From Robiginitalea sediminis (GTDB lineage: Bacteria > Bacteroidota > Bacteroidia > Flavobacteriales > Flavobacteriaceae), in assembly GCF_002198115.1 (NCBI RefSeq), contig NZ_NGNR01000003.1, forward strand, positions 305,546 to 369,545: a DNA stretch of 64,000 nt, read 5' to 3'. Within the stretch, counting starts at the first letter, position 1, and each line of letters opens with the position of its first letter. The notes beneath the pieces were generated by a model. The model was not told the DNA's origin. It was given only the letters and a program-made list of their open reading frames with translations, and made no database searches. The position numbers and the translations under genes are program-made. Shown here piece by piece: positions 13,730 to 41,038 of the stretch.

Positions 13730-13896
13730 AAAAGGTCACACTGTGACCTATCTCAACTCATGTGTGACCGAATTGTGACCTCGAGCACCCTGAATTGGAA
13801 GAATTATTTCAAATCAAAAAAGACCAAATCAAATTAAAAAACCCTGCAAGTCTAATGATTTGCAGGGTTTTGATATCAAATCGTATCAAATTTTAG
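13730..13896. repeat. Element right-end sequence, copy 2
   Basis: Matches 7160-7336 over about 170 bp, including GGTCACAC / GTGTGACC inverted repeats, TGTGACCTCGAG and the CCCTGCAA hairpin. Shows that elements 1 and 3 have homologous tRNA-proximal ends. Confidence 0.8.
13842..13867 (-). terminator. Hairpin terminator beside tRNA 3' copy at 13897
   Basis: CCCTGCAA ... TTGCAGGG with T-run, 30 bp left of the att copy, same as at 7282-7307. Confidence 0.7.
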
Positions 13897-13919
13897 TGAC
13901 CACGCCAGGATTCAAACCT
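13897..13919 (-). repeat. att site copy: distal end of the ICE
   Basis: 23 bp identical to the tRNA-Arg 3' end at 40965-40987; four more bases on the left (TTAG) are also shared. Followed by the common left-end sequence with GTTGACGATTTGTGAACC at 13972-13989, which recurs with one change at 40844-40861 near the other end of the ICE. Confidence 0.9.
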
Positions 13920-21438: not shown

Positions 21439-21493
21439 ATGAGCGGGTCATTCGGATTTGCTATCTTTAAGACAGCTCAAAAAAGAGCTTAAC

Positions 21494-21535: not shown

Positions 21536-21771
21536 CATCCAAACATTTTTTAGATCTGGAATACCCCAAAGAATTGGGGCGTTCGACGCTTTCAACGAAC
21601 TATTTCGTGGGGCAAAGCGGAGAAGCAAGAGGGTAACCTGCTCGCGCAAGGTTACGTTTTGTAGCTATCACATATTCAAGTAGTTAGGGTGTTATCAACG
21701 ATTGGATAAATCGCGTTTTTGAGTCAAAACGCCTGTAACGTACTGATAATCAATTCAAATTTTACTCAAAA

Positions 21772-23198: not shown

Positions 23199-23202
23199 AA
23201 AC

Positions 23203-24816: not shown

Positions 24817-25586
24817 AAACTAAAATTCCGGCTACCCATTTTCTCTTTCAAAATGACTTTCAAGGATTCGTGCTGACCCAGGGTAAACTTAGGGTACACC
24901 AGGACAAACCGATGGGTGGTTCCCTGGGGAACCATACTTGGGCGATCATACTCCCATACGGGAATTATTGGGCGCTGCTGATAGGAAGACTTATGGGTCG
25001 TATTGCCCAGGATTTTTAGAAGGGTAAGCTCCTCGATCTCGTAATTGATTCGTGAGCCGTTTTCCAGTTCATAGGTAATGTAAACTTCTGAGTTGTGGTA
25101 AAAACTATCGGTCATTTTAAGGCGTATGCCCCGCTGGTGCTGAATTTTTTTAAAGGGAATCGAATGATGGATCATCTGCTCACTGATACGCTGCATCCCT
25201 TCCGGGTTCCTGGTAATGCTGTCAGTAACCGGAAGGGTTTCTATTGGCTCAGCCTGTAAGCGTTTGGCTTCCGCAACAAATTGGGTAAAGGTCGGTAGGC
25301 TATCCTTATAGGCTACTACAAAGGAGTATATTCCTCCATCCTCGGTAACCACGAGCAAATTGCTTTCTGGACCTTCTTTGGCTTGTAAGAGGCCCAGGGT
25401 TTCAAGTCTTTCCCGGTTAAAGGTAAAGGCGTAATTCGGGGCACCGGTTACGGCTTTTTCAATGGGACTTTCAAAGAAAAGGGAGAGTACTTGCCGATGA
25501 TTGGCATACAGTGTGTCGGGGGTAGGTTGACTGGCCAATGGACAGAAGGAGATCAAAAGAATGAATGAAGATAAAAGTGATTTCAT
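24813..25586 (-). CDS. traN: Conjugative transposon protein TraN (DUF4138, VirB9-like)
   Basis: 257 aa with a signal peptide (LLSSFILLISFCPLASQ). The mature part begins with the DUF4138 pattern (DTLYANHRQVLSLFFESPIEKAVTG, YAFTFNRERLETLGLLQAK, NLLVVTEDGGIYSF) and ends in beta strands like VirB9 (MVPQGTTHRFVLVYPKFTLG). It should sit at the outer membrane as part of the channel collar with TraM. Last gene of the tra operon; 2 bp after traM. Confidence 0.88.
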   Translation of the reverse strand: MKSLLSSFILLISFCPLASQPTPDTLYANHRQVLSLFFESPIEKAVTGAPNYAFTFNRERLETLGLLQAKEGPESNLLVVTEDGGIYSFVVAYKDSLPTFTQFVAEAKRLQAEPIETLPVTDSITRNPEGMQRISEQMIHHSIPFKKIQHQRGIRLKMTDSFYHNSEVYITYELENGSRINYEIEELTLLKILGNTTHKSSYQQRPIIPVWEYDRPSMVPQGTTHRFVLVYPKFTLGQHESLKVILKEKMGSRNFSF

Positions 25587-25588
25587 AG

Positions 25589-26494
25589 CTATTTGGATTT
25601 AGATTTTAGAAGCAGGCGGTGTCCATCCAGGACCGTGACTTTGAGGTTTTGTTGTCGACGGCGGAATACATTTTTAATGCCAGTCAGCTGGGGCAGCCCG
25701 GCGATGTTCACATCTTGTACCACATCCTCTAAAACCTCGCGGCTCGCCTCGGCCTTAAACGAGTTTTCCAGATAGATTCCCCGAAGACCATCCTGCAGGT
25801 CATAGGCCTCCAGGACTTGCGCTTCATCTCGAGGATGCAAGACCGAGATAAACACCCGGTTGGGCCCAAAATGAACCGTTCCCCACAGGATGCTGTTTTT
25901 CGGTAAGGTTTCATCCCCAATCGAAACGTCTTCTAGGGTCTGTATTTGGATGCGGCTTTGCTTGCGAAGCAGGTGATCCCCGGCAATCCGGGCCCGGGCA
26001 AAATAGCGGCCATCTGCTTTCTCCGGATGGCTAGCAAAAAAGAGTTGGTGCTCCAGGGACAGATCCGAAGAGGTTCTTGCTGGTACTTGTTCCTTAGGAG
26101 TTTCACCCGTGCTGCTGACAATGGTTGGTGTCGCTTCCGAAGCTGAAAGGGTTGGAGCTTCCCTGGAAAAATGCTCCCGTGCATAAATGCTGTCTATGAT
26201 CCGCTGCTTTTCATATTCCATATAATCCGGATTGAAATAACCTTTTTCATCGATCATGTGATCGGGATAGGGAGAAGGAAGCTCGCTCGCTGGCCGCACT
26301 TCTTTGAGCGCATCCAGGGCCTGAATCTTAGACTCAAAAGGGGTATCAGCCCCTTCCCAGTTAGGTAGCCCCGGAGCGGTAAGAGCGGGCTCGGCTCGGG
26401 TATCATCCAGGATCCAAAAAGAATACCCGACCAGAAACAGGAGGATCAGGGCCAGGACTCCTGCGAAGACGATTTTGTTTTTTTCAAGGTTCAT
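25589..26494 (-). CDS. traM: Conjugative transposon protein TraM (VirB10-like)
   Basis: 301 aa: one N-terminal membrane span (VFAGVLALILLFLVGYSFWI), a Pro/Glu-rich periplasmic linker with many ThrSerAla stretches, and a C-terminal beta domain (RARIAGDHLLRKQSRIQIQT, LPKNSILWGTVHFGPNRVFIS) as in VirB10/TraM. It links inner and outer membrane parts of the channel. Overlaps traK by 11 bp and is followed by traN after 2 bp; there is no TraL gene between TraK and TraM. Confidence 0.88.
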   Translation of the reverse strand: MNLEKNKIVFAGVLALILLFLVGYSFWILDDTRAEPALTAPGLPNWEGADTPFESKIQALDALKEVRPASELPSPYPDHMIDEKGYFNPDYMEYEKQRIIDSIYAREHFSREAPTLSASEATPTIVSSTGETPKEQVPARTSSDLSLEHQLFFASHPEKADGRYFARARIAGDHLLRKQSRIQIQTLEDVSIGDETLPKNSILWGTVHFGPNRVFISVLHPRDEAQVLEAYDLQDGLRGIYLENSFKAEASREVLEDVVQDVNIAGLPQLTGIKNVFRRRQQNLKVTVLDGHRLLLKSKSK

Positions 26495-27098
26495 TGGAGA
26501 GTTTTTTTAGGGACTTTTCAAAGAATTCGGTGATCAGGAGCCCGTGCGGATTCCGGGGAAATTGTCGCTCTACCGGGATCAAAACCCCGGTAGTGATGAG
26601 CTCATAGGTATCGGTGACTTCCCCTCGCCTAAGGTCAAATACCAGCCGGGAGGTGAAGGGTATCCGATTATCCCCGGGCTCTAGGCGCGACTCAATTGAG
26701 ACTACTTTTTGCACCAGTGAGTATTGCAAGAGGCGGTTGTAGAGGCCTTCGGATTTCTTTTGCTTATAAAGCTCGTTCACGCTGGTATCGGCCCACCAAA
26801 GGGCGCGCTCCAGGTGCTGTTCAAAGGTGGCAGCATCAATGCCGTAGAACAGGCGGTGGAACTGTTCCAGGTGAGCCAGGGCTTCTATTTCGCGATTTGC
26901 CGATTGGGCCTCCCAGGAAAGGGGAAGGACGGCCCCACTGGCATCAATGGCAAAGGCATTTTGAAGGGCGTCGCGGTGAATCCGATAGGTCATCCAGGTG
27001 GATACCCCACTGCTAGCAAAGGCCATGATCACCACGCTGATCACGATCAGGCGATTGATTCGAAACAGGGTATGGATGTTTTGATAGGAGAATTTCAT
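26484..27098 (-). CDS. traK: Conjugative transposon protein TraK (VirB8-like)
   Basis: 204 aa with one membrane span (LIVISVVIMAFASSGVSTWM) and a periplasmic NTF2-like domain, the layout of VirB8. LYNRLLQYSLVQKVVSIES and DLRRGEVTDTYELITTGVLIPVERQ are typical TraK stretches. It acts as an assembly factor of the channel. Overlaps both neighbours (4 bp with traJ, 11 bp with traM). Confidence 0.88.
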   Translation of the reverse strand: MKFSYQNIHTLFRINRLIVISVVIMAFASSGVSTWMTYRIHRDALQNAFAIDASGAVLPLSWEAQSANREIEALAHLEQFHRLFYGIDAATFEQHLERALWWADTSVNELYKQKKSEGLYNRLLQYSLVQKVVSIESRLEPGDNRIPFTSRLVFDLRRGEVTDTYELITTGVLIPVERQFPRNPHGLLITEFFEKSLKKLSNEP

Positions 27099-27940
27099 GC
27101 GGTAAAGAGTTTTAGGGTAAAAGAGGTGGCTTTGCGGTAGAGCTTAAACTTTAAAAAGACGATAAACCCCACGGAGCCCAGATCCACCACAGGAGCAAAA
27201 ACCCGGCTGCCTACATCCGTGCCAAATAGGTTGGGCCAGAAATTGGTGTTGATTTCCGTATAAAGGGTATTGATAAACACATTGACCAGGAAGAAAGCCG
27301 GCACCAGCATGTAGACCGCGGCATAGAGTTTAAAAAACCCATAAGCCATGGGCCGGAATTTTTCAAAGACAGCCAGGGCTAAGACCAAGGGGAAAAATGC
27401 CTGCAGGATTCCAAGTAAAAAATACCGCTCCGCCAGAAAGAGCGGATAGATAAACAGGTCCAGTATCCATAGGATAAGGCTTATTATAAAGGCCAAAAGC
27501 TTCCATCCAAAAAGTGGTGAAATGAGCGCCTCATACAACAGGGCCAGGGCCTCTTTAGTGGCCTCCAGCACCCCGATATCCTCCTCAATAGGGATGTCCT
27601 GCAATTGCAAGGGCAATAGGGCAGGGGCGGTATCGCGGTACTGGCCTTCGATGGCCAGCAGGATGTTATCGAAAAAGCCTAAGATCTGGGTAGAGAAGAT
27701 CACCAGCAAGACAATCATAAAATTCTTGGCCAGCTCCCCCGGGGTGAGCCCCCAGGTATATCCCTCGCGATCGGCCACCCCTTCACTGTACTTCTTTAAG
27801 ATGTTGACCAGGAAGAAAAGCACTGCCAGGGTCTTCATACCCGTGATCGTATACTGGGAGAAGTCACTGGCCTTGATCGTCTGGAAGACGGCGTCGACAT
27901 ACTCCAGGCCCATTAGTAAAGGAAGTGCCCAAAAATCCAT
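27095..27940 (-). CDS. traJ: Conjugative transposon protein TraJ (VirB6-like)
   Basis: 281 aa polytopic inner-membrane protein with about six to seven spans (TLAVLFFLVNILK, KNFMIVLLVIFSTQIL, LLAFIISLILWILDLFIYPLFL, FFPLVLALAVFE, VYMLVPAFFLVNVFI and others). It forms the inner-membrane core of the channel. Starts on the last base of traI. Confidence 0.87.
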   Translation of the reverse strand: MDFWALPLLMGLEYVDAVFQTIKASDFSQYTITGMKTLAVLFFLVNILKKYSEGVADREGYTWGLTPGELAKNFMIVLLVIFSTQILGFFDNILLAIEGQYRDTAPALLPLQLQDIPIEEDIGVLEATKEALALLYEALISPLFGWKLLAFIISLILWILDLFIYPLFLAERYFLLGILQAFFPLVLALAVFEKFRPMAYGFFKLYAAVYMLVPAFFLVNVFINTLYTEINTNFWPNLFGTDVGSRVFAPVVDLGSVGFIVFLKFKLYRKATSFTLKLFTA

Positions 27941-28521
27941 CAGTGCACAGGCTCTCGGTTATTGATTTGCTCCTGCATGCGCCGAAAGGCGATGATATCG
28001 CGGTAGCGCTCAGTCTTTCGGGTAATCTCGGCGGTCATCTCCCGGGATGCGGCTTCCTTTTCCAAAAGGATGCCGGTACGCTCGGCATCGGTCATCTTTA
28101 GAAAATCACTGGAGAGGATGTGGCTCACCAAGTCCAGATCCTCGATAGCAGTGGCCATGAGCTGCTCAAAGGTATTTGAGATCTGCCGGGTTTCCTCGGG
28201 TCGGATGTACGGGGAGCTGAGGATATCTCTAAGGTCCCTTTGCACCGTGCGAAAGAGGATCTCGTGATTTCGGGTGAGTTCACGGGCCGCCCGCAGCTCC
28301 CGGATCACATTGTTAACCTTGACAATGTTGTCCTTCTGTTCTTTGAGAAATTCGACCGTTTTTAAAAGCTCCGAGGTCTGTTTGGCGGATTCAATCAGCG
28401 ACTTGGTCATGCTGATAAAATTCGTGTTGTCATACACAGGCATGCCCTGACCGGTGACGCCAGCAGGCACGAACATGGAGAAGGTAAGGGCTAAGCAAAG
28501 GGTTTGTAATGAGCGTTTCAT
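27940..28521 (-). CDS. traI: Conjugative transposon protein TraI (DUF4141, VirB5-like)
   Basis: 193 aa exported coiled-coil protein. Signal peptide MKRSLQTLCLALTFSMFVPAG, then a long helical rod (SLIESAKQTSELLKTVEFLKEQKDN ... VNNVIRELRAARELTRN...). The gene order G-I-J-K and the size match TraI of CTnDOT-type elements. VirB5-like proteins sit at the pilus tip; the exact role is inferred. Confidence 0.8.
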   Translation of the reverse strand: MKRSLQTLCLALTFSMFVPAGVTGQGMPVYDNTNFISMTKSLIESAKQTSELLKTVEFLKEQKDNIVKVNNVIRELRAARELTRNHEILFRTVQRDLRDILSSPYIRPEETRQISNTFEQLMATAIEDLDLVSHILSSDFLKMTDAERTGILLEKEAASREMTAEITRKTERYRDIIAFRRMQEQINNREPVH

Positions 28522-28529
28522 AATAGATC

Positions 28530-30929
28530 CTATTTAATGTTTAAAAATTCTTGGATGGCGCGCTCCATGCAGCCATGGCGCTCGTATAGTTTCTGAAGGA
28601 CATCGGATTGTGCTCCATCGGTGAGATAGGCGGCATAAACTTCCCGAGGAACCTCCAGGCGGTAGACATTGCTTTGTTTGCCGATTTTTAAAAAGAGCTC
28701 GGTGTATTTGCGGGTTCCCGTAAGGTTGTTTCGCATGCTGTAGAGCTGGTTGACATCGTGGTCGGTCAGATGCAGGCGCTGCTGTAGATCTGCGTAGCCC
28801 TTTTCATTGTGCAGGCTGTAGATGACCTGGGTGTTTTCCAGGATGCTGGCCGAGGTGTGATTTTGGGGCAGCTGGTTGATGCTTTGCAGAATGATCCCGA
28901 TGGCCCCATTTTGTTTGCGGATGGCCTGGTAATAGAATTCCACGCTTTCCAAGACATTGTCGAATTTGAGTTGCTTGGCAAACTCATCAAAGAGGATGAT
29001 GCCTTTCTCCGAGCGGTTTTTCCAAATGGTGCGCTGAATGGCCGTTTTAATCAGTTTGAGCATAACGGCCAGAAGCTCCCGGTTGTCTTTCACATCATCG
29101 AGCTCGAAGATGATCATGCGCTTGTCTTCCAGGCGGAAAGTTTGATCATCCCCACTGGCAAAAAGGAAGCTGTAAAGCCCCCCGCTGACGTATTCGGAAA
29201 GGATATGCAAGATGTAGTCCAGGGACAAATACGAATCCGGGATATCCAGGGATTCCAGTAAGTCAGTTTTGAAGGCTTTTACAAACTGATAGAAGGTCTC
29301 CAGGGAGTGATCCTGGCGCACTTCCAGGTAATAGTGGCGCAGCACCTTTTTTAAGGCCACCGTTTGGGGTTTGCCTAGTGGGGTGTCCGAGGCCAAGAGC
29401 TCCAACAGGAACTGTGTGAGATCCTCCAGGTGGTCCGCTTCAATGACTTCCGGATGGGTGACAAAAAAGGGATTGATACCCAATGACGTTCCTTCCTTGT
29501 AGCGCAGTAATGCGTACTGGTCGGGATACAGGCGGGCGAACTTTGTGTAAGAGCCTCCCAGGTCGATGATCACCAGGCGCACCCCGGCCTCAAAATATTG
29601 CCGAAGGATGTTGTTGGCCAAAAAGGATTTACCTTCTCCCGTAGGGGCAAAAATGGCAAAGTTGCGAGCCTTGATCCGTTTTTTGGACTCATCCCAGACA
29701 TCCTTGAGTACAGGGGTATTAAAGACCCGATCCTGAAAGAGGATGCCACTGTCATCACTGCGGTAGGTCGTGGTGTTAAGCCACAGGCACAGGGCTGCTT
29801 TCAGGTCGGATACGTACAGATCGGAATCTGAGAATAGGGTAGCGTAGGATGGATAGCTATTTAAAAAATATTTTTTACGTTGCTCTCCCCGGGGATAGTA
29901 GGGCAGGATATCGAGTTCCTTGAATTCGGCTTTTATGGCGGCGGCAATCCCCGAAAGACGGGACTTATCCTCGCTCCAGTACAGGAGGTTTAGGTGTCCG
30001 CGGATTACCCGGGATTGGTCATCTTCATTGATCTGAGCGAGGATCTGCTGTACCTTTTGTAAAATGACCTGGTTCTGGGTGCCAAACCGAGAGGATTTCT
30101 TGAGTTCTTCGATGCGTCCTTCCAGGATCTTGCGCCACTTTTGCTTGTCATCCAGATACAGGATTTGATTCACCACATGATTCTCCTGCAGCTGCAGGCC
30201 CAGCCCGTCGATGAATCCCTGGTGAAAGCCAAAAGCCTCGGATGAGAATTGGCCATTGGGGATGCTGCTGCTTACCGATTCCCCGAAACAGAGCTCGCTG
30301 TTCATGCTAAGCACATCCCAGTGCTGGTCTCCAATGGTGAGTTCCGACCCCAAGAGGATATCGGTATCCATATCGGTGGTGTAGCCATTGAAATAGGCCT
30401 TGGTGTAGGCCTTGAATTGGTCCGCAGAAACGGGGATCAGCTGAAGTTTTTTGGAGTTGTTCACAAAAGCCACGGCATCCTCTACCTGACGCACAAAGGA
30501 TTTTAGGTTCCCTTCCAAAAGGGAAGGGATGCCGGTGGCCACTTTTTTAAAAGGATTGACAAAGGCTGGATTATTTAGCGCCCGGTTTTTTCCATAAACA
30601 AAAAACAGGTAAGAGGTATGGGTCATGGTGGGGCGGCCCTGGAAATATCGTTGGGTGGACTTGGCCAAAAAAGTCTCTGAAGGCAGGGGGGAGGCATCAT
30701 AGGTTGCTTTGAGGTAGATGTCCTGCTTGTGGATGACCGTTCCAGCGGGAAGGGTTTTCAGCGCCTGAAACCAGGTGCTATGTAGCGCCTCGAAATCACT
30801 TTCTGAGACAGAATAAATCTCAGGGAGTTCCAGACGAAAGGGTAGGATGAGATTTCCATTGCTGGCAAAGACCACCCCATCTTGAATGGTCAGGATGGGA
30901 TGGTGGGCGCTTAGTTCAATCCCTCTCAT
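28530..30929 (-). CDS. traG: Conjugative transposon ATPase TraG (VirB4-like)
   Basis: 799 aa cytoplasmic ATPase that powers assembly and transport. The N-terminal VirB4 domain (about 20-380) is followed by a RecA-like ATPase core with Walker A FAPTGEGKSFLANN and Walker B KGIILFDEFAKQ. RKQNGAIGIILQSINQL is the usual downstream motif. Overlaps traF by 14 bp. Length is normal for the family. Confidence 0.92.
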   Translation of the reverse strand: MRGIELSAHHPILTIQDGVVFASNGNLILPFRLELPEIYSVSESDFEALHSTWFQALKTLPAGTVIHKQDIYLKATYDASPLPSETFLAKSTQRYFQGRPTMTHTSYLFFVYGKNRALNNPAFVNPFKKVATGIPSLLEGNLKSFVRQVEDAVAFVNNSKKLQLIPVSADQFKAYTKAYFNGYTTDMDTDILLGSELTIGDQHWDVLSMNSELCFGESVSSSIPNGQFSSEAFGFHQGFIDGLGLQLQENHVVNQILYLDDKQKWRKILEGRIEELKKSSRFGTQNQVILQKVQQILAQINEDDQSRVIRGHLNLLYWSEDKSRLSGIAAAIKAEFKELDILPYYPRGEQRKKYFLNSYPSYATLFSDSDLYVSDLKAALCLWLNTTTYRSDDSGILFQDRVFNTPVLKDVWDESKKRIKARNFAIFAPTGEGKSFLANNILRQYFEAGVRLVIIDLGGSYTKFARLYPDQYALLRYKEGTSLGINPFFVTHPEVIEADHLEDLTQFLLELLASDTPLGKPQTVALKKVLRHYYLEVRQDHSLETFYQFVKAFKTDLLESLDIPDSYLSLDYILHILSEYVSGGLYSFLFASGDDQTFRLEDKRMIIFELDDVKDNRELLAVMLKLIKTAIQRTIWKNRSEKGIILFDEFAKQLKFDNVLESVEFYYQAIRKQNGAIGIILQSINQLPQNHTSASILENTQVIYSLHNEKGYADLQQRLHLTDHDVNQLYSMRNNLTGTRKYTELFLKIGKQSNVYRLEVPREVYAAYLTDGAQSDVLQKLYERHGCMERAIQEFLNIK

Positions 30930-31200
30930 AACAAAGACCTGTAGATTGTTGATTGCTGATGGATTCCGGGTAGACTTTTTGAAGGGTTACCAGCTGGGGA
31001 TTTCGGTTAAACCGAAGCAAGCCCGCATAGAGTCCCAAATTGACTAGTAGGCCTCCCAGAATCACCCCCAAACTGAAGGAGAAGATGATCACGAGCAAAG
31101 AGCCAATAACGGCAACCATTTGCAGGGCAAACAGGCTTACGGGTAGCCCGAAGATCAAGGCGCGCTTTCGAATGCTGCGATAGATGGGGTAGGTTTTCAT
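30916..31200 (-). CDS. traF: Conjugative transposon protein TraF (DUF4133, VirB3-like)
   Basis: 94 aa with two adjacent membrane spans (IFGLPVSLFALQMVAVIGSLL and SLGVILGGLLVNLGLYAGLL). The start MKTYPIYRSIRKRALIFGLP is typical of the DUF4133/VirB3 group. Starts on the last base of traE and runs into traG by 14 bp. Confidence 0.88.
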   Translation of the reverse strand: MKTYPIYRSIRKRALIFGLPVSLFALQMVAVIGSLLVIIFSFSLGVILGGLLVNLGLYAGLLRFNRNPQLVTLQKVYPESISNQQSTGLCYERD

Positions 31201-31487
31201 TAGACCACAATGCCAATGAGGTAGGTGAAGATGCCAACGACCGCCCCGGCGATCAGTACAAATACCAGGACCCGGGTAATCCCTTTCTTCAGGTCGGCAT
31301 TCTCCCCGAAGAAGTGGCCGGCATTAAATAAAAAACCGATCAGGAAGATGACCCCCAGGACAATCGGGAAGATGGTGCGGATGGTATCGGCCACATCGTT
31401 GACCGAATCTTCAATGCCCCCGATCTGGGCAAAGAGTGGATGGGCGGATAGAAGCAGAACTGTGAGAAGGGAAAGCGGTTTTTTCAT
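31200..31487 (-). CDS. traE: Conjugative transposon protein TraE (DUF4134, VirB2-like pilin)
   Basis: 95 aa. Signal sequence (LLTVLLLSAHPLFAQ), a short amphipathic part (IGGIEDSVNDVADTIRTI), and two hydrophobic helices (FPIVLGVIFLIGFLFNAG, VLVFVLIAGAVVGIFTYLIG). This is the pilin-like layout of VirB2. First gene of the tra operon. Confidence 0.87.
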   Translation of the reverse strand: MKKPLSLLTVLLLSAHPLFAQIGGIEDSVNDVADTIRTIFPIVLGVIFLIGFLFNAGHFFGENADLKKGITRVLVFVLIAGAVVGIFTYLIGIVV

Positions 31488-31793
31488 GGCTAGAATTTGA
31501 CGATTATCGATAGCGGCAAACTATCAAAATCAAATTCTAACTAAAAGCATATCAGGTTTTTGTGGACAAAATATTGGTTGATGTCAAATGAATGCAAAGG
31601 ACCCCAATTCAATTGAAAATGAATGGATACTTAAGGGTGAGGCTGTTGATAAGTCCAAAACCGACCGAGTAAATTGGCACTGAAAACGTCAATTGGGGCT
31701 GCAAACCTCGAAGAAATTAATCCAAAACCAGGACATTTTTGGAAGGATTGGTGATTAAGATGGGGAGTAGGGGTGGCTAGGGAAGTAGCGATT
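31488..31793. other. Gap upstream of the tra operon
   Basis: About 305 bp, AT-rich, no gene. The tra promoter must lie here, reading leftward; I see AATATTTTGTCC on the minus strand (near 31565-31578) as a weak candidate but no good TTG/TAnnTTTG pair. RteC-dependent control of this region would fit the family but is not visible. Confidence 0.5.
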
Positions 31794-32456
31794 TCATTTT
31801 CGCTTATCGATCGCCTCTTGGTCAAAGGCGATGAGATTAAAAAGCTGGCGCATCCGACTGCGCACCCGGTTGCCGTAACGCTCTTCCAGCTCGTCGGCAT
31901 TCAGGTTCGTGGTTGCATGGGTTTTGACCTTGTGATTCACAAAGAGCTCGTATCGGGAAAGCAGCACTTCCCCCATGACGTTGCAGTCCTGCCCGTAATA
32001 ACGACCCATGGGCTCTACTCCCAGATCATCAAAACAGAAAAAGCTGGAATTGCCGTAATCTTCAATGGCTTTGAATCCGATGTGGTTGAAGGAAAAGAGG
32101 ATGTTTCGGCTGGGGATGACGCTATAGGGTTTGTGGTGGGGCACGATGTATTTGAGCAGTTTCATCAGGCTGGTTTTGCCGCATCCGATGGGACCGGTAA
32201 GCAAAATGCCTTTGTTTGGATCAATCCCCAGTTTTTCGCAGTTATCATAGTCCTTGATCGTGCAGAAAATGAGTTTTTTAAGGACCGCATGGTCCTGCTC
32301 GAAAATTTTGAAATGATTCCCAAAACACGATTTGCCCTTTACCTCCAAGTATGTTAGGATCCGTTGGAAATCATAGTGGATGACCTTGCCCTCAAGCGTG
32401 CCGATGGGATAGGACCGGTCTGCCTCAGTGAGGATATGGGGCTGGGTAGAAATCAT
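31794..32456 (-). CDS. DnaC/IstB-like AAA+ ATPase
   Basis: 220 aa AAA+ protein with Walker A TGPIGCGKTSLMKLL (about residues 88-102), Walker B FFCFDDLG and the arginine-rich C-terminal RYGNRVRSRMRQLFN. Helicase-loader-type ATPases of this size accompany replication genes in Bacteroidota conjugative elements. The partner encoded directly upstream (4-bp overlap) looks like a primosomal protein. Expected role: load the replicative helicase on the excised circular element. Confidence 0.82.
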   Translation of the reverse strand: MISTQPHILTEADRSYPIGTLEGKVIHYDFQRILTYLEVKGKSCFGNHFKIFEQDHAVLKKLIFCTIKDYDNCEKLGIDPNKGILLTGPIGCGKTSLMKLLKYIVPHHKPYSVIPSRNILFSFNHIGFKAIEDYGNSSFFCFDDLGVEPMGRYYGQDCNVMGEVLLSRYELFVNHKVKTHATTNLNADELEERYGNRVRSRMRQLFNLIAFDQEAIDKRK

Positions 32457-32992
32457 AACGGCTTATCGTACTTTTTTTGTTCACGGGTTCGGAGGTTGTC
32501 CGATTTTGGGACACCTGGATTTTCGTTTTCTGGATTTTTCGAATTTTCAGAAAATGAGTTTTTTAAATTTTTCTGTTTTATATCTGTTTTATTGTTTTCT
32601 ATAGTTTGTATATGTTTTATTATAGGTACCAGCGCTTGTCCACTGCTTGTCCCGATATTGGTATGGCACTGGTACAGTGCTTGTCCACTACTTGTCTCGA
32701 AATTGTACATCTTTATTCGGCTTCCCTTAAAAGGGTTGTGAGAAGGTCTGTATTGAATGTATTTCCAGAGACTTAATTCCCGAATGCATCGGTGATAGGT
32801 AGTCTTGGAGCCAATTTTCGAAAGAGCCATGGCTTCGTCTCGGCTGATAAAGAATTCTTTTTTAAAAAAGTAAGCGTTCCAAAAGTGGAAAAGGGCCATG
32901 TACAAACTGATGTGGGTTGGATTGATTCGGCGATCTTTTGAGAATTGCTCGAAAACACCATTGAGATGTCGGATGTAATTAGGTTCCTTCAA
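32453..32992 (-). CDS. Predicted replication/primosomal protein with winged-helix-like N-terminus
   Basis: 179 aa. The first ~105 residues (RRINPTHISLYMALFHFWNAYFF, FISRDEAMALSKIGSKTTYHRCI, RPSHNPFKGSRIKMYNF) have the pattern of a helix-turn-helix domain seen in DnaD-like proteins; the C-terminal ~70 residues are low-complexity, Asn/Lys/Glu-rich. It overlaps the DnaC-like ATPase by 4 bp, and the excisionase-type gene precedes it by 4 bp. I am confident of the gene, less of the function. Confidence 0.72.
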   Translation of the reverse strand: MKEPNYIRHLNGVFEQFSKDRRINPTHISLYMALFHFWNAYFFKKEFFISRDEAMALSKIGSKTTYHRCIRELSLWKYIQYRPSHNPFKGSRIKMYNFETSSGQALYQCHTNIGTSSGQALVPIIKHIQTIENNKTDIKQKNLKNSFSENSKNPENENPGVPKSDNLRTREQKKYDKPL

Positions 32993-32996
32993 AACA

Positions 32997-33278
32997 CTAG
33001 TAGAATTTGTTATCGACCCGGTTTTGCTGCAGGACGCGGGTTATCTCCTCCGCGTCGTAGTAGAGTACCCCGCCCACTTTAGTGTAGGGGATAGTCCCGT
33101 TGATCCGTAGGTTCTGTAATGTGCCAGCAGAAATGCTCAATAGTTTCCTTACTTCCCCGGAACGGAGCCATCGTCTGGGTTTAGATCCACTGGAATGATC
33201 AAGCAGCTCTTTAAGTTCTTCCAGGAGCTCCATTTTGAATTCTCTTAAATCATCGGTGGTAATGAGTTGTGTAGCCAT
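32997..33278 (-). CDS. Excisionase-family HTH protein
   Basis: 93 aa with an HTH_17 domain: WLRSGEVRKLLSISAGTLQNLRINGTIPYTKVGGVLYYDAEE, and an N-terminal helix (MELLEELKELLDH). This is the usual 'excisionase' annotation of Bacteroidota conjugative transposons; most act as transcription regulators. Resembles the protein at 19659-19937 in layout. First gene of the three-gene operon with the replication-like pair. A hairpin lies just upstream (33300-33337). Confidence 0.85.
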   Translation of the reverse strand: MATQLITTDDLREFKMELLEELKELLDHSSGSKPRRWLRSGEVRKLLSISAGTLQNLRINGTIPYTKVGGVLYYDAEEITRVLQQNRVDNKFY

Positions 33279-33299
33279 AAAAAAGGGTTTTAAAAAACA

Positions 33300-33337
33300 A
33301 AGCCGTCACGGTTAGCATTTTTTAGGACGGCTTTGCG
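33300..33337. promoter_or_regulatory. Hairpin upstream of the excisionase-type gene
   Basis: AAAGCCGTC ... GACGGCTTT, with CCGTCACG inside its left arm and TTGATTTGACTTTCG following (33338-33352). The same two words occur at 21493-21520 upstream of the mobilization genes. Either a terminator or a shared protein-binding site. Confidence 0.45.
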
Positions 33338-33397
33338 TTGATTTGACTTTCGTTCGGTAAAATTGTGGGCTTTTGGAGGTAAAAACTCAGAAGGTGT

Positions 33398-33535
33398 ACC
33401 CCAGTGGGGTATTTTTTTCTTTGGGAATAAAATCTTAATTAAAGGTGGTATTTGGCCACAATTTTCACCAAAATAGAGGTGTTAAATAGGGCTGAAATGG
33501 GCCATTACAAAATACCCAAGTGGGGTGTTTTGGGT
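33398..33535. repeat. Short related palindromic words upstream of the excisionase gene
   Basis: TACCCCAGTGGGGTA (33398-33412) and TACCCAAGTGGGGTG (about 33520-33534) are near-identical palindromic words 107 bp apart. The second could form the terminator stem of rteC on the minus strand; the pair may also be an operator. Confidence 0.45.
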
Positions 33536-33540: not shown

Positions 33541-34359
33541 CTAAAAGTCATCCGAATCCATTTTTTTCTGCAGTTGCTCGGCTAGTTGATCCAGGAATTT
33601 GGTACGGCTTTTTTTTCGAAATCGCAGTTCGGAATAGCATCGATATACATCTCCCAGATTACATTCAAAATGTTCCTGAAAGAAATCTGCGATTTTCTTG
33701 ACAGAACTATGTCCATGCTCAAAGACGCCCGAGGCCTGGAGTGCATAAATGAGCTCGATCAGATCCACTTTTTGTCCAGTCCATTTAAGTGATTCCTTGA
33801 ATAGATATTCCTGGGAATTAGGTTTATCCAGGAGGTATAGTTGATGGGTCAAATACTTGGCGAATAAACAAGAAGCATGGTATTTGGCAACAAGGGTATC
33901 ATGATTAGTTGAGAAGTCAGGGTCTGAATTGTAATTCCAACTGGTTGCCATTTTACTCGCTCTATTTCTGGTGAAGTAAAGGGTATCCAAATGGGTTTCT
34001 TCTTGTCTAAGGTATCGAATGAATGACGAGTGCTTTTTGTGGAACCGATTTATGGAGGCCATTTTGTCCTTCACTATATTTTGCTTGGCATCCGGTAACA
34101 TTACCGGGCAATTTTCAAGAAGTTTATGGATCTTGAGAAAATAGATCAAATGGGATAGGACAAGGGGTTTTGCGTGTTTGAAAAAGTGAATCTCTTGTTC
34201 TTCAGATTTAAATTCTGTGGATTTGATTATGGATCGAAGGAAATCGAGTTGATTACTGGTTAATTCAATGGCAAATCGAAGACGTTTTAGGTCTATTGTA
34301 TAATCCTGGAGATAGGGATTAATGTACTCAATGTATTTGTCATTATTCATGCACTCCAT
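33541..34359 (-). CDS. rteC: RteC-family regulator of conjugative transfer
   Basis: 272 aa, all-helical. The C-terminal ~100 residues carry the RteC family signature: LKWTGQKVDLIELIYALQASGVFEHG, then VKKIADFFQEHFECNLGDVYRCYSELRFRKKSRTKFLD. In CTnDOT, RteC activates excision/transfer genes downstream of a tetracycline-sensing cascade. No RteA/RteB or tetQ is encoded here, so another input is likely. The gene stands alone upstream of the replication operon, on the same strand. Confidence 0.9.
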   Translation of the reverse strand: MECMNNDKYIEYINPYLQDYTIDLKRLRFAIELTSNQLDFLRSIIKSTEFKSEEQEIHFFKHAKPLVLSHLIYFLKIHKLLENCPVMLPDAKQNIVKDKMASINRFHKKHSSFIRYLRQEETHLDTLYFTRNRASKMATSWNYNSDPDFSTNHDTLVAKYHASCLFAKYLTHQLYLLDKPNSQEYLFKESLKWTGQKVDLIELIYALQASGVFEHGHSSVKKIADFFQEHFECNLGDVYRCYSELRFRKKSRTKFLDQLAEQLQKKMDSDDF

Positions 34360-34601: not shown

Positions 34602-35411
34602 ATGATAAACTCTATATTGGGAAGAACTAAAAAGCGTTCAAATACAATGAATGAATTACTACCTATCGAAAGTGAGGATTTAAGTGCATGTATGGAGCAG
34701 AAAATCAACAGGTATTTGGAGGGGCTGGACAAATACAATCAAAGTGATTCCCAAAAAATCTTGGAATTATGTCAGGTCGGTAAATTCCTCTGCACCTTTT
34801 TTCCGGAATATGAAATAATGGAAGTGCGGGAAGGGCCCGATTTTATAATTAGCAATGGGATTCGATCAGTAGGATTGGAACATCAATCAATTTATAAGGA
34901 GGACGTTTTAAAAAGAACCGGATTTTTTGAAAATATAGCGCTGCTTGCGGAGCAGGAATTTGATAGCGATCCGGAGATGCCAAACTTTTTGGTGAATTGC
35001 TATCTAAATAAGGACGTTGATTATGGTAATAAACATAAAAAGGAAATTCTCGCTACCTTCATAAAGGTCATTAAAGAATATGTTCTAAAGGATAGAATAA
35101 TTGAGAATAATTTATTTGAACGTCTTATGAAAATGGATCATACTCAAAAAAGTGTGGAGGTTAATTTTGGAGGCTACATGGTGCCGATGCTTAGTGATCA
35201 AAAACTACTGGAAGCCATCCAGAAGAAGGAGCAAAAACTACCTGAGTACATCAAAAACACTTCACTACCTCAATGGCTATTACTATTGATTGGGGGCGTC
35301 GGCGAACATTCATACTATTTGCGTAGAAACACTCAGCTGGATTTTAAGACTTCCTTCGAAAGGATATTCATCTTGGAGGATTTTGACAATCGATTCTATG
35401 AACTAAAATAG
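34602..35411 (+). CDS. Predicted PD-(D/E)XK-like protein of unknown function, next to a type IIG enzyme
   Basis: 269 aa (254 from the alternative start Met16 at 34647). Residues ~60-105 hold a pattern of the PD-(D/E)XK nuclease core: a helix (KILELCQVGKFL), an acidic strand (EYEIMEVREGPDFIIS) and a second strand ending in SVGLEHQSI, that is E..GPD..(x12)..GLEHQ. In many members of this fold the last motif is ExK; here it is E-x-Q. The end (LPQWLLLLIGGVGEHSY) resembles the C-terminal region of several uncharacterised nuclease-like proteins. It is 243 bp upstream of the type IIG gene, same strand. The fold is a motif-based guess. Confidence 0.6.
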   Translation: MINSILGRTKKRSNTMNELLPIESEDLSACMEQKINRYLEGLDKYNQSDSQKILELCQVGKFLCTFFPEYEIMEVREGPDFIISNGIRSVGLEHQSIYKEDVLKRTGFFENIALLAEQEFDSDPEMPNFLVNCYLNKDVDYGNKHKKEILATFIKVIKEYVLKDRIIENNLFERLMKMDHTQKSVEVNFGGYMVPMLSDQKLLEAIQKKEQKLPEYIKNTSLPQWLLLLIGGVGEHSYYLRRNTQLDFKTSFERIFILEDFDNRFYELK

Positions 35412-35654
35412 GAAGGGTAAAAACTGCTTTTACTCAATGGCCTATTCTGCGAACTCCCAAACAATTCAGAAGTAATGGGACAACACTCGCAAGTCATATT
35501 TGGTTTGATGTTAATCCCATTTGGAAATCCAATTTGCGAAAAGGCGAATAAGTACCGGCTACTAAGCAAATTCAAATCTGAGAGAAAGAGCCTATTTTTA
35601 TTTGAGGCTTTGCATATGAATGATAAATTCAACTAGAAAAGAGGCATAAGCAAG

Positions 35655-38600
35655 ATGGAGATTAAAAAATTGAAACCAAGAAAGGCACTTAATAAAGCCT
35701 TTTTGAAAGTAAAACCCAACAGGTCCGAAATCGAAGGTTTCAAGACCAATCTCATCCAGCTGCTTAACAGGACAAATGACACCGAATCGGAAGAGTTTCA
35801 TAAAAACCTTGTCATTGACTTTCTCAAAAAAACCTACTACGACCCAAACCATTTTGTCAACACCAAAGGGCGAAATGACCTTGTAATCCATAACGGAGAC
35901 AAAGCAAAGAGCACGGTCGGAGTAATTATTGAAGCAAAAAAACCGACCAACAAGAATGAAATGATATCGACTGACAAGCTCAATACAAAGGCTTTTCAGG
36001 AATTAATGCTTTACTATCTAAGAGAGCGAATCACACAAAACAACCTCGAAACCAAACATTTGATTATTACAAACATCAATGAATGGTTCATTTTTAATGC
36101 GACCACCTTTGACAGACTATTCGCTCAAAACAAAAAATTAGTAAAGCAATTCAATGAATTTGAAGGTGGTCGATTGGCAGACACCAAAACGGATTTTTTC
36201 TACAAGCAAATTGCCGAGCCATTTATCGCAGATATTAAAACTGAAATTGAATTTACCTACTTCAATTTACAGGATTATCAAAAGCCCCTTCGAAATGAGG
36301 ATAAAACAGACGATAATAAACTTATTGCACTATACAAGCTTTTATCTCCTGAACATCTTTTAAAACTTCCATTTACCAATGACAGCAACAGCCTAGACAA
36401 GCGTTTTTATAGTGAGTTATTGCATATTATCGGTTTAACTGAGACCAAAGAAGGAAGTAAGAAACTAATAGAACGAAACAAATTAGGCGAACGACTATCG
36501 GGGACCATTCTTGAAAATGCTATCATTCAGCTTGACAGTTTGGACAAGATTAGCAGGTTGGAACGACCGAGTCAATTTGGCAATTCACAAGAAGAAAGGC
36601 TTTTCAATATTGCCCTTGAACTTTCCATTACTTGGATCAATAGGATATTATTTCTGAAACTATTGGAAGCTCAACTTATCACCTACCACAAAGGCGATAA
36701 ATCGTATTCATTTCTGAATGTAGACAAAATCAAGAACTATGACGATCTGAATGGATTGTTTTTTCAGGTCTTAGCCCGTAAGCATGAGGAGCGAAACGAA
36801 GATGTTATTAAAGCTTTTGAGAAGGTCCCCTATCTCAATTCTTCCTTATTCGAGCCTACAGATATTGAACAGCAAACACTTTTCATAAGTAATCTAAGGG
36901 ACGATAAAACCATTCCAATTATATCCTCTACTGTGTTGAAAGACCAGCATGGAAAAAAGCGATCAGGAAAGCTAAATGCGATTGAATATCTTTTTGAATT
37001 TCTGGACGCATACGATTTCAGCAGTGAAGGTTCGGAAGAGATTCAGGAGGAAAACAAATCTCTTATTAACGCTTCCGTTCTTGGATTGATTTTCGAGAAA
37101 ATAAACGGTTACAAGGATGGTTCATTTTTCACGCCAGGTTTCATCACTATGTATATGTGTCGCGAAACCATCCGTAAAGCAGTTGTGCAGAAATTCAACG
37201 AGACTAAAAATTGGAAATGTAATGACCTGGATGACCTTTACGATAAAATTGAAGACCGGAAAGAAGCCAATGAGATTGTTAACAGTCTAAAAATTTGTGA
37301 CCCGGCCGTTGGTTCAGGACACTTTTTGGTTTCGGCACTAAATGAAATGATCGCCGTAAAGAATGACTTGAAAATTCTACAAGACCGAGACGGGAAACGC
37401 CTGAAAGAGTATCAGGTTGAAGTGATAAATGACGAACTGATTGTAACTGACGAAGAAGGAGAGCTCTTTGATTATAACCCTAACAACAAAGAAAGCCAAC
37501 GAATACAAGAAGCGCTTTTCCACGAAAAACAAACCATTATTGAAAACTGTCTTTTCGGGGTGGACATCAATCCGAACTCAGTTAAGATTTGTCGATTGCG
37601 TTTGTGGATTGAGCTTTTGAAAAACGCCTATTACAAGAACAACACAGAACTTGAAACGCTCCCTAATATTGATATCAATATAAAATGTGGAAACTCTTTA
37701 GTGAGCCGTTTTGCCATTGATGCAGACCTGAAAAAAGCCTTGAAAAAAAGCAGGTGGACAATTGACAGCTACCGAAAGGCCGTTGATACTTACCGAAATG
37801 CTGAAAGCAAGGAACAGAAAAGAGAAATGGAACGCCTGATAGCCGATATTAAGTCAGATTTCAGGAGTGAAATTTCTTTGAATGATCCAAAAGTTAAACG
37901 TTTTCGCAAACTTTCAGGAGAACTATTTCAACTAACTAACCAAGGGCAGCTTTTTGAAATGGGTAAAAATGAAAAAGCCGCATGGAGCAAGAAAGTGAAG
38001 CAGCTAACCGAACAAACCAATAAGCTAGATGCAGAGATTGAAGAAATAAAGGCCAACAAGATTTTTGAAAACGCTTTTGAATGGCGGTTTGAATTTCCTG
38101 AAGTATTAAATGATGATGGCGATTTTATGGGCTTTGATTGTGTGATAGGTAATCCGCCTTATTTGAACGTAGAATTGATGGAAAAAAGGGATAAGGATTA
38201 TTTCAAAAATGCCTTTACAACCTTTTACAAACGTTCAGATATTTTCAATTTGTTCATAGAATTGGCAACTTCTTCATTGACACAAAATGGAATAATAAAT
38301 TTCATTATCCCTTCAATTGTTTTAAACAATCTCTCATATAGGCCAATTAGAGAACGTTTGTTAAAAAACAATTGGTTAAGCAGAGTTTTTTACACTGGCG
38401 GCAACATTTTTGAAGAGGCAACAGTTGATACCGTTATTCTCTTTATAGATAAGAAAACTGTAAAATCAATAGAGTTAATCGATGCTTTAAATTTCAACCA
38501 ACCACGAACAACGGTAGTTGAAAATGACTTTTTTGAAAAATTCGATTATACAATTAGTGTAAGCGGTGATGAAAACTCAAACAAAATATTTGACAAGTTA

Positions 38601-39371
38601 TTCAAAGCAACTAATATTAATGTTGAGCAGCACTTTGAAGTATTTCAAGGAATAGTAACAGGCAATAATCCAGTTTTTATTTTTGATGAACCCGAACAAT
38701 GGATATCAGCAGAGATTGAACCTGAGCTTTTAAAACCTGTATTACACGGCCGTGACTTCAACAAATGGATTATAAAGAATTCAGAAAGAAAAATCCTTTA
38801 TCTAAATCCAAAGAGCGATATAGACAACTTTAAAAAGGCTAAAAGATATATTGAACCATTCAAAGAAGAATTATCAAAAAGGCGAGAATGTGTTAATGGT
38901 GCAATACCTTGGTTCTCATTACAATGGGCCAGAAACAAAGACTTATTAGATTACACCCCAAAAATAATCATTCAGAATACTCGTAATGAAAGACTAAAAC
39001 CAAGGATCGTAGCCACTGTGGACGAAGTGGGTTATTATGGCTCACAAGGTTTAAACTTTCTAGTTCCCAAGACAGGCGAATATTCAGCATATTTTTTAAT
39101 TGGGATTATAAACTCGACTTTGGTAAATTACCTTTTTGCTACCAAGTTTTTAAATCTTGCAATAAAAGCTGACTACATAAAGCAAATTTCGTTTCCAATG
39201 CCTTCAGACAAGGCTGTAAATGAAATTGAATCTATATCAAAAGAAATATTAAAACTTAAATCAAAAGACATACAAGCAGACACATCAGAACTTGAAAAAC
39301 AGTTAGATTTTTCTGTTTATCATATGTATCATTTAACAGAAGATGAAATTGATATTATCGAGAATACATAG
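35655..39371 (+). CDS. Type IIG (Eco57I/TaqI-like) restriction-modification enzyme
   Basis: 1238 aa single-chain enzyme: endonuclease, adenine N6-methyltransferase and target recognition domain together. The N-terminus has a PD-(D/E)XK site (Asp75 in GRNDLVIH, Glu93-Ala-Lys95 in IIEAKKP). Methylase motif I is DPAVGSGHFLVSALNE (Asp549 on) and motif IV is NPPYLN (Asn833 on); the NPPY tetrad marks N6-adenine methylation. The last ~330 residues (HGRDFNKW, NTRNERLKPRI...) form a TaqI-like specificity domain. The gene is AT-rich compared with the tra genes, so it was probably acquired separately. It protects the element or host from foreign DNA. Confidence 0.92.
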   Translation: MEIKKLKPRKALNKAFLKVKPNRSEIEGFKTNLIQLLNRTNDTESEEFHKNLVIDFLKKTYYDPNHFVNTKGRNDLVIHNGDKAKSTVGVIIEAKKPTNKNEMISTDKLNTKAFQELMLYYLRERITQNNLETKHLIITNINEWFIFNATTFDRLFAQNKKLVKQFNEFEGGRLADTKTDFFYKQIAEPFIADIKTEIEFTYFNLQDYQKPLRNEDKTDDNKLIALYKLLSPEHLLKLPFTNDSNSLDKRFYSELLHIIGLTETKEGSKKLIERNKLGERLSGTILENAIIQLDSLDKISRLERPSQFGNSQEERLFNIALELSITWINRILFLKLLEAQLITYHKGDKSYSFLNVDKIKNYDDLNGLFFQVLARKHEERNEDVIKAFEKVPYLNSSLFEPTDIEQQTLFISNLRDDKTIPIISSTVLKDQHGKKRSGKLNAIEYLFEFLDAYDFSSEGSEEIQEENKSLINASVLGLIFEKINGYKDGSFFTPGFITMYMCRETIRKAVVQKFNETKNWKCNDLDDLYDKIEDRKEANEIVNSLKICDPAVGSGHFLVSALNEMIAVKNDLKILQDRDGKRLKEYQVEVINDELIVTDEEGELFDYNPNNKESQRIQEALFHEKQTIIENCLFGVDINPNSVKICRLRLWIELLKNAYYKNNTELETLPNIDINIKCGNSLVSRFAIDADLKKALKKSRWTIDSYRKAVDTYRNAESKEQKREMERLIADIKSDFRSEISLNDPKVKRFRKLSGELFQLTNQGQLFEMGKNEKAAWSKKVKQLTEQTNKLDAEIEEIKANKIFENAFEWRFEFPEVLNDDGDFMGFDCVIGNPPYLNVELMEKRDKDYFKNAFTTFYKRSDIFNLFIELATSSLTQNGIINFIIPSIVLNNLSYRPIRERLLKNNWLSRVFYTGGNIFEEATVDTVILFIDKKTVKSIELIDALNFNQPRTTVVENDFFEKFDYTISVSGDENSNKIFDKLFKATNINVEQHFEVFQGIVTGNNPVFIFDEPEQWISAEIEPELLKPVLHGRDFNKWIIKNSERKILYLNPKSDIDNFKKAKRYIEPFKEELSKRRECVNGAIPWFSLQWARNKDLLDYTPKIIIQNTRNERLKPRIVATVDEVGYYGSQGLNFLVPKTGEYSAYFLIGIINSTLVNYLFATKFLNLAIKADYIKQISFPMPSDKAVNEIESISKEILKLKSKDIQADTSELEKQLDFSVYHMYHLTEDEIDIIENT

Positions 39372-39505: not shown

Positions 39506-40729
39506 TTAGTTCTTAAGTTTAAGTTCTAAAAGTGCCATGTCTTCAGAAATTTTCCTTTCTAATACCCGGGCATAAATCTGCGTTGTGGCAATTTTAGTGT
39601 GTCCAAGAAGTTTAGAAACCGTTTCAATAGGCACCCCGTTTGAAAGAGTAACTATAGTCGCAAAGGTGTGACGAGCCATATGAAAAGTGAGATTTTTTTG
39701 AATTCCCACGGCTTCGGCAACTTCTTTTAAATAGAGATTGAGTTTCTCATTAGTGATTACAGGTAAAAGGGAATTACTGACTTCTGTAATTGGATGCTGA
39801 TCATATTTATTTATGATTTCTTTTGCCTTCTTTAGAATTGGTACTTTTACGGGTACTTTTGTCTTAGCTCGTTTGGTTATTATCCAGTAACTCCCGTCTA
39901 TCCCCAATTGAATATTCTTTTTTGTCAAGCTTATCATATCCGCATAAGAGATACCTGTATAGCAGCTAAAGACAAAGAGATCCCTCACACGATCCAGCCG
40001 ATCAAGAAGGAACTTGTAATCTTCAAGAGCCTTTAATTCTTCCTCAATAAGAAATTCACGATCTGTCCTTGTAAAGTTGGGTTTCCAGCGCAGAAATGGA
40101 TCTTTATCTATCCATTCCAAATGATACCCTAAGGTTACTATCTTTTTGAATCGCTGCAAATGCTTCATCACTGTATTTTGACTCATGGCCTTAGGATGAC
40201 CTTTCGGCCAGTAGTTAAATAAATAGGCTTCAAAATCAGAGATTAATTCATAATTAAGCTCGCCAAGGAATACATCTTCTTTCTTTTTCTTTTCCTTTAA
40301 AAAGCGATTCAAGTAACCAGTAGTTACTCCAAAATTTCGTTTAGTACCTTCGGCCAGAGTATTTTCGGTTTTGCGGTTATGGTAGGTGATAAGGTCTTGT
40401 AGAGTTTTGCGAGTTTCAAATTCCCCCAAATACATGGCCTTAATGATCTTCGCTGTTATAAGTTCGTTTTTTTGGTCCAAGGAATTATAACACTGAATGA
40501 GCTTGGCATGTGCCTGGTCCAAATAATGGTTAACCACTCGAGCAGCTTGAGAATTCCCCTTAGCCCGTTGTCTATTCGGATCCCAAAGGTCTTTATTGAC
40601 TTTAATTTTCAGACTAAAATTAACCCTCTTCCCATTCACTGTGATACGGGAATAAATTGGGGTAAGATCCTGAGAGGATCTATTGAAGTAGGTCCAGAAA
40701 AGAATCGAAAAAGTTTTTTTAGAACGCAT
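39506..40729 (-). CDS. Tyrosine integrase of the ICE (IntDOT-like)
   Basis: 407 aa site-specific recombinase that inserts the element into tRNA-Arg. Arm-binding N-terminal domain (ARM/phage_int_SAM_5-like, 1-110), core-binding domain (~115-225), catalytic domain (~235-405). Catalytic residues: Lys286-291 region, His350 and Arg353 (FHMARHTFAT), His377 (LLGHTK), Tyr386 (QIYAR). The first Arg of the RKHRHY set is replaced by Ser261 (CYTGISYADM), as I recall for IntDOT of CTnDOT. The gene is 235 bp from the tRNA and reads away from it, the normal arrangement. It is the only recombinase among the stacked elements. Confidence 0.93.
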   Translation of the reverse strand: MRSKKTFSILFWTYFNRSSQDLTPIYSRITVNGKRVNFSLKIKVNKDLWDPNRQRAKGNSQAARVVNHYLDQAHAKLIQCYNSLDQKNELITAKIIKAMYLGEFETRKTLQDLITYHNRKTENTLAEGTKRNFGVTTGYLNRFLKEKKKKEDVFLGELNYELISDFEAYLFNYWPKGHPKAMSQNTVMKHLQRFKKIVTLGYHLEWIDKDPFLRWKPNFTRTDREFLIEEELKALEDYKFLLDRLDRVRDLFVFSCYTGISYADMISLTKKNIQLGIDGSYWIITKRAKTKVPVKVPILKKAKEIINKYDQHPITEVSNSLLPVITNEKLNLYLKEVAEAVGIQKNLTFHMARHTFATIVTLSNGVPIETVSKLLGHTKIATTQIYARVLERKISEDMALLELKLKN

Positions 40730-40938: not shown

Positions 40939-40964
40939 TTGATTTGCTTTGGTAATCAATTTAG

Positions 40965-41038
40965 TGACCACGCCAGGATTCAAACCTGGAACCTTCTGAG
41001 CCGTAATCAGATGCGCTATTCAGTTGCGCCACGTGGCC
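40965..41038 (-). tRNA. tRNA-Arg (anticodon ACG)
   Basis: 74 nt cloverleaf read on the minus strand: acceptor GGCCACG/CGTGGTC (one G-T pair), D-stem GCGC/GCGC, anticodon stem TCTGA/TCAGA with loop TTACGGC (anticodon ACG), T-stem CCAGG/CCTGG with TTTGAAT loop, discriminator A; CCA not encoded. ACG is normally edited to ICG. The 3' end (40965-40987) is the integrase target and is kept intact because the ICE brings an identical sequence. The promoter is at 41064-41093. Confidence 0.95.

Follow-up and report, generated by a model that had tools for sequence, protein, structure and literature searches.

A predicted PD-(D/E)XK-fold nuclease encoded next to a complete type IIG restriction enzyme in a tRNA-Arg-associated conjugative element of Robiginitalea sediminis

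Results

The window analyzed here, a stretch of 64,000 nucleotides from Robiginitalea sediminis (contig NZ_NGNR01000003.1, positions 305,546 to 369,545), contains an open reading frame (ORF) listed as encoding 269 residues (positions 34602..35411, plus strand), followed on the same strand by a gene coding for a protein of 1238 residues (positions 35655..39371). The two genes are separated by 243 bp (positions 35412-35654), as reported in a first-pass annotation of the locus. The probable start codon of the ORF is the ATG at position 34647, which leads to a protein of 254 residues, since the two closest relatives (L081 and L082) start where this protein has its second methionine (MNELLPIES). 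The ORF is present as a single copy in its genome. We found no Bacteroidota-type promoter pattern upstream from the ORF and only sites with two mismatches in the 243-bp gap.

The 1238-residue protein is a complete type IIG restriction-modification enzyme, as the first-pass annotation had it. Pfam analysis revealed four domains (DUF7149, DUF7814, an Eco57I methylase, and a TaqI_C specificity domain), and the PADLOC IIG model REase_MTase_IIG (PDLC03612) matched residues 1-1237 with an E value of 2.8e-248. Motifs were located at residues 74 (NDLV), 93 (EAKK), 549 (DPAVGSGHF), and 833 (NPPY), the first two constituting a nuclease-like motif of the enzyme's own (ND...EAKK). Nuclease, adenine methylase, and specificity parts are thus combined in one chain, which defines the type IIG class. 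The literature searched contained no mention of DUF7149 or DUF7814. The gene located 3' of DUF7149-type IIG enzymes varied between loci in the manner of an accessory slot (L142 to L155, inspected by eye). The 269-residue protein is not a duplicate of the nuclease part of its neighbor, no similarity being detected between the two (hhalign probability of 0.2%). It matched no methyltransferase family and so lacks the one-chain organization of type IIG enzymes.

Both genes lie between the integrase and rteC genes of an element associated with a tRNA-Arg gene. Perfect direct repeats of 28 bp at positions 13892..13919 and 40960..40987 delineate this element, which has a size of 27 kb. The second att-like end is located at the 3' end of a tRNA-Arg(acg) gene detected with ARAGORN (positions 40964-41038, minus strand), and the first one is a direct repeat of that 3' end. 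The element encodes a TraG-family conjugative ATPase, the product of a coupling-protein-like gene, an rteC-family regulator (positions 33541..34359, minus strand), and a tyrosine integrase (positions 39506..40729, minus strand), the last two identified with Pfam and the rteC gene forming the left border of the cargo slot. The integrase had matches in 42 of 119 genomes. Of 14 integrases whose flanks were read, two (L177 and L186) had rteC on the same side, with int-rteC intervals occupied by genes quite different from those of the window. The GC content of the ORF (36.4%) and of the IIG gene (35.5%) was lower than that of positions 20000-33500 (48.1%) and 41100-64000 (56%). Together, the att repeats, the variable slot, and the GC contrast indicate that the ORF and the IIG gene are cargo of the element. 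Low GC content does not single out the pair, since the left end of the element (positions 13892-20000) is also low (37.7%). The two genes were possibly acquired together, and they are probably independent passengers.

The rteC-int cargo consists of genes for a UvrA-like ATPase and a TetR-like protein in L177 (positions 7567-10955) and for large surface-type proteins in L186 (positions 2433-10818), all names being assigned by eye. Five exact partial copies of the tRNA-Arg 3' end (15 to 28 bp) occur in a row in the window (positions 4294-4308, 7332-7350, 7584-7601, 7760-7783, and 13892-13919), as if several elements had integrated successively. The low-GC left end (positions 14191-19547) encodes proteins of 498 and 247 residues without a Pfam match and an 873-residue UvrD-type helicase that scored on the PADLOC models GajB and RTasHel.

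A resemblance to PD-(D/E)XK nucleases had been proposed for the 269-residue protein on the basis of an E..GPD..GLEHQ stretch. This stretch is present (residues E77, P79, D80, E93, H94, and Q95). Among 53 window genes obtained by greedy gene calling, a strict pattern, E-PD-(8-14)-G[LIVM]E-x-[QTK], was found in one and a loose pattern, PD..[DE]x[KQT], in 10, so that the motif carries little weight by itself. The invariance of P79, D80, and E93 in the 31 sequences of alignment A4 indicates that it is more than a chance occurrence and backs the proposed resemblance. A4 comprised the window protein and related loci that had not been selected on the PD motif, the scan patterns covering two stretches around E55 and F252.

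Searches of curated libraries with the 269-residue protein returned nothing from NCBIfam or PADLOC at an E value of ≤1, and none of the defense models of PADLOC-DB 2.0.0 was matched at this threshold or at ≤0.01. Pfam returned only weak rows below the cutoffs (CdiI_2, E value of 0.018; Sod_Fe_C, E value of 0.05), each in one of seven family members, and the best PHROGs match was not significant (E value of 0.053). The seven members of set A1 and ten further members did not match any Pfam family with an E value better than 0.017. Single-sequence searches with the protein found nothing useful in genome contigs, viral contigs, PDB sequences, or, by tblastn, plasmids and phages, and the same outcome was obtained in plasmids with L069 and L093 and in phages with L111. 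The best match of a profile search of PDB sequences was an oxidoreductase, which was not convincing (E value of 0.064). The family is new to Pfam, NCBIfam, PADLOC, and PHROGs, within the known PD-(D/E)XK superfamily.

Relatives were detected at an E value of ≤0.01 in 11 of 397 genomes of the same taxonomic family, including that of the window; five of the ten others were clear (E values of 1.1e-9 or better, 27 to 58% identity) and five were weak. Profile A2, built from six sequences, had matches in 63 of the 395 order genomes and in 15 of the 296 genomes of a phylum sample, the two samples overlapping. By row count, 56 of the 63 matching order genomes belong to a single sister family, f2, possibly the Weeksellaceae; the count covers matching genomes. 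A second profile, A3, retrieved 30 genome loci and one viral contig. The weak genome matches behind L008, L010, and L011 looked unrelated when read. In a phylogenetic tree, the window protein grouped with L081 and L082 (support of 100/99). L093 was a basal branch of the larger group to which these belong, and L069 fell in another group, the deep joins being unsure because the branches are long. The family is widespread in the Bacteroidota; its members were encountered in a conjugative element, in restriction-modification clusters, at a syntenic chromosomal position, and on a viral contig. Broken or truncated relatives were observed in L068 (positions 9143-9565 and beyond, genome G1353), where the match was distributed over two stop-containing frames, and in L109 (positions 9914-10261), a fragment of 115 residues, as if the gene were sometimes lost.

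Structure prediction from the 269-residue sequence alone was useless (pLDDT of 36), whereas the AlphaFold model obtained from the 31 aligned sequences of A4 had a pLDDT of 90.8 and a pTM of 0.83. The model comprises, in order, a helix (residues 47-66), three strands (71-75, 81-84, and 89-96), an insertion, two helices (199-210 and 213-220), and three strands (224-230, 254-259, and 264-267). This predicted topology is that of the PD-(D/E)XK fold. The middle region (residues about 101-198; positions 34902..35195, plus strand), which separates the third core strand from the second core helix, is considered to be an inserted subdomain because the 128-residue relative L018 lacks it, the motif III strand of L018 running almost directly into the KKE helix.

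Foldseek alone did not identify any confident match in the PDB (best E value of 0.075), and neither the PDB nor BFVD contained a match at an E value of ≤0.001. Foldseek's own top PDB chains were realigned with VIA-align, which gave Z scores that were all below 8, the range in which the tool warns of common arrangements. The best row was 1y0k (PA4535; Z score of 7.1, rmsd of 3.7, 124 aligned residues), an entry whose title reads "Monooxygenase Superfamily" and for which a literature search on PA4535, DUF1780, and 1y0k found nothing relevant. An unrelated acetyl-CoA carboxylase ranked second (Z score of 6.2). Nine of the first 15 rows were Holliday-junction resolvases or resolving enzymes (Z scores of 5.2 to 3.6), corresponding to about four distinct proteins, and other rows included two entries of the XPB-Bax1 endonuclease complex (Z score of 5.2), a HerA-DUF assembly, and FokI (Z score of 3.9). 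From a Z score of about 3.5 downward, GTPases and aminotransferases were mixed with EcoO109I, BamHI, and Bse634I. PA4535, Bax1, and the DUF partner in 9c1m are PD-(D/E)XK proteins. The case for a nuclease fold is made by the agreement between topology, fold matches, and motifs, each Z score being middling. The profile and structure searches advocated in the first-pass annotation thus returned relatives across the Bacteroidota and a PD-(D/E)XK topology but no significant match in the curated libraries, and the predicted model and the conserved acidic residues support its guess of a nuclease-like fold.

An alignment was extended to 66 rows, from which the L109 fragment, L059, the broken frame of L068, and duplicates were left out and in which f2 rows were numerous and mutually close. 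P79, D80, E93, K209, Y216, L226, and F252 were conserved in 66 of 66 rows and E55 in 65 of 66, the exception being L071; the invariance of PD and GxE is partly by construction, since part of the rows had been chosen by a regular expression requiring them. Motif II is represented by P79-D80, which adjoins the strand formed by residues 81-84, and motif III by E93 in the strand formed by residues 89-96. The canonical motif III lysine position (position 95) is occupied by Q in the window protein and, across the 66 rows, by T (40), Q (11), S (8), E (3), K (2), V (1), and R (1). The lysine is therefore missing in 64 of 66 rows, as would be expected if the protein were a catalytically dead nuclease with a binding or regulatory role. 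We consider this explanation quite improbable, since E55, D80, E93, and K209 hardly vary even though the sequences have diverged strongly, as for a working metal site, and since replacement of the lysine has published precedents. According to PMC1913061, the motif III positive residue has migrated to the following core helix in DUF506, DUF790, and DUF1626, a threonine often being left at the old position in DUF1626. PMC4081073 indicates that BglII and NotI have a Q in place of this lysine. On the basis of this near-invariance and of these precedents, E55, D80, E93, and K209 are proposed to form the active site of the 269-residue protein, K209, which belongs to the next core helix of the model, being the likely replacement of the motif III lysine.

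The first-pass annotation had offered two roles for the protein, an accessory nuclease of the IIG enzyme or an independent defense gene. As a functional accessory, it could, for example, degrade DNA nicked by the IIG enzyme or wrongly modified DNA. The shared strand, the 243-bp spacing, and the similar low GC content of the two genes are in keeping with such a role, and so are two further loci. In L069, the relative is located 6 bp after the stop codon of a DUF7149-type IIG gene, on the same strand. In L093, the relative follows a DUF4391 gene by 10 bp in a type III restriction-modification cluster (positions 6029-18356) in which the gene order is SNF2-type helicase, DUF4391, relative, Fic gene, N6/N4 DNA methylase, and type III restriction subunit (ResIII and RE_endonuc domains). 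The type III methylase and restriction models that scored in the PADLOC scans were attributed to two genes of L093. Homologues do therefore occur beside or inside restriction-modification clusters, contrary to the situation that the first-pass annotation had named as speaking against its proposal, and the window protein, L069, and L093 are not sister sequences. The closest relative, L081, is uninformative since its contig extends no further than 106 bp past the gene. Random placement at the 20 IIG loci discussed below would lead to well under 0.01 adjacencies (about 0.05 copies per genome, from 15 of 296, and 3,500 genes assumed), a rough estimate that clustering of accessory genes would raise.

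The broader survey argues against the accessory role. PF23653 (DUF7149) was detected in 23 of 247 phylum genomes, including that of the window, and in 2 of 29 genomes carrying a relative found with A3 (the genome of L086 is not among the 29), a rough comparison because the 29 are mostly of the Flavobacteriia type and the 247 come from across the phylum. Thus, the co-occurrence with IIG genes that the first-pass annotation had suggested checking was not seen at the genome level. We inspected 20 of 25 PF23653 places, that of the window and four short fragments being excluded; contig ends cut several of the 20. A relative adjoined the IIG gene in only one of these 20 other loci (L069), with the reverse gene order, the ORF preceding the IIG gene in the window, and the genes around the remaining loci were varied. 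No constant genomic association with DUF7149-type IIG enzymes, as would characterize an obligate accessory, was therefore found. Neighbors were read by eye at 31 loci and 14 further ones, L063 and L064 coinciding with L100 and L092. The relatives were mostly solitary, with nearest genes that were mostly unrelated and without a restriction gene. L109, the 115-residue fragment, is about 6 kb from an IIG gene of another PADLOC model. L092 comes after a gene that matches bSEFIR and AbiTii, and L087 is followed by a candidate defense gene, PDC-S31. PADLOC models were also compared between genes near to and far from the relatives (143 of 165 near and 120 of 137 far proteins scanned, those of L073, L074, L079, L080, and seven others being dropped). 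Counted per family rather than per protein, IIG and type III models appeared in both sets among the best 25 of 229 near families and the best 25 of 53 far families. An accessory function is quite unlikely, and an obligate one is unlikely. The protein is better read as independent of the IIG enzyme, recruitment to restriction-modification clusters being an occasional, minority situation. The second role offered at the outset fares better in its claim of independence, the defense part being plausible.

In f2, a glucan phosphorylase-like gene recurred near the relative in L065, L066, L067, and L078 (assigned with Pfam in L065 and by eye in the three others). The conserved neighborhood points to vertical inheritance and perhaps to a cellular role in f2. 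The protein might alternatively be a structure-specific, resolvase-like housekeeping or repair nuclease picked up by elements by chance. The predominance of Holliday-junction resolvases among the fold neighbors of the first 15 rows, the concentration of the matching order genomes in f2, and, in single genomes, the proximity of relatives to purF/sod-like and thyA-like genes (names assigned by eye) are compatible with this explanation. It is rendered improbable by the mobile cargo status of the window copy, by the sparse distribution of the gene in its own taxonomic family, where half of the ten other matches are weak, and by the relatives located in restriction-modification clusters or on a viral contig.

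Discussion

We favor, with some reserve, the view that the 269-residue protein acts on its own as a PD-(D/E)XK-fold nuclease with a proposed active site formed by E55, D80, E93, and K209, carried as cargo beside an independent IIG enzyme, with a likely role in defense. The gene, the conservation of its residues, the topology of the predicted model, the borders of the element, and the variability of the slot are observations; catalysis, DNA as the substrate, and defense are steps that we infer from them. The estimates attached to the rival explanations are not mutually exclusive.

In the proposed mechanism, the protein, which is probably an autonomous nuclease, would cleave nucleic acid, most likely DNA. 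The metal would be bound by E55 in the first core helix, D80 in motif II, and E93 in motif III, and the invariant K209 in the second core helix would stand in for the motif III lysine, perhaps with the help of Q95. The stretch of about 100 residues inserted after the third core strand and before the second helix would probably set the substrate or a partner. The int-rteC slot of the 27-kb conjugative element carries the nuclease gene together with the complete IIG gene as low-GC cargo, and the nuclease would likely act in defense against incoming DNA.

A more ambitious proposal is that these Bacteroidota proteins form a new family of PD-(D/E)XK defense nucleases, with the lysine on the second core helix, that was independently recruited to restriction-modification clusters (twice type IIG and once type III) as a second effector destroying DNA that the host enzyme had bound, nicked, or failed to recognize. 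We regard this as unlikely. In any case, the family alignment, the model, and the invariant residues provide a handle on a nuclease-fold family located outside the four profile libraries searched. If the protein is active, the PD-(D/E)XK repertoire gains a family with a displaced lysine. The int-rteC interval of such elements is a cargo slot worth mining.

Comparison with known systems places the family within the PD-(D/E)XK superfamily, in which Holliday-junction resolvases are among the nearest folds. The predicted core order is the same (helix-strand-strand-strand-[insertion]-helix-strand), as are the E in the first helix, the PD in motif II, and the E in motif III. The family differs by the presence of mostly Q, T, or S in place of the motif III lysine, by the invariant K in the motif IV helix, by the insertion of about 100 residues, and by the absence of any sequence match to the superfamily. 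It resembles DUF506, DUF790, and DUF1626, as described in PMC1913061, in that the positive residue has shifted out of motif III into the core helix that comes next, and DUF1626 in the frequent T at the old lysine position, but no Pfam row for any of the three was obtained with the family members scanned. As in BglII and NotI (PMC4081073), the window protein has a Q at this position; those are type II enzymes, whereas the window protein lacks its own methyltransferase and its family more often has T than Q there. The neighboring gene encodes a DUF7149-type IIG enzyme, with which the protein has no detectable shared sequence. Rpn proteins also belong to the PD-(D/E)XK superfamily. Although no library match links them to the 269-residue protein, they provide a precedent for this kind of nuclease in phage defense, PMC10327210 describing them as nuclease proteins with an antiphage role.
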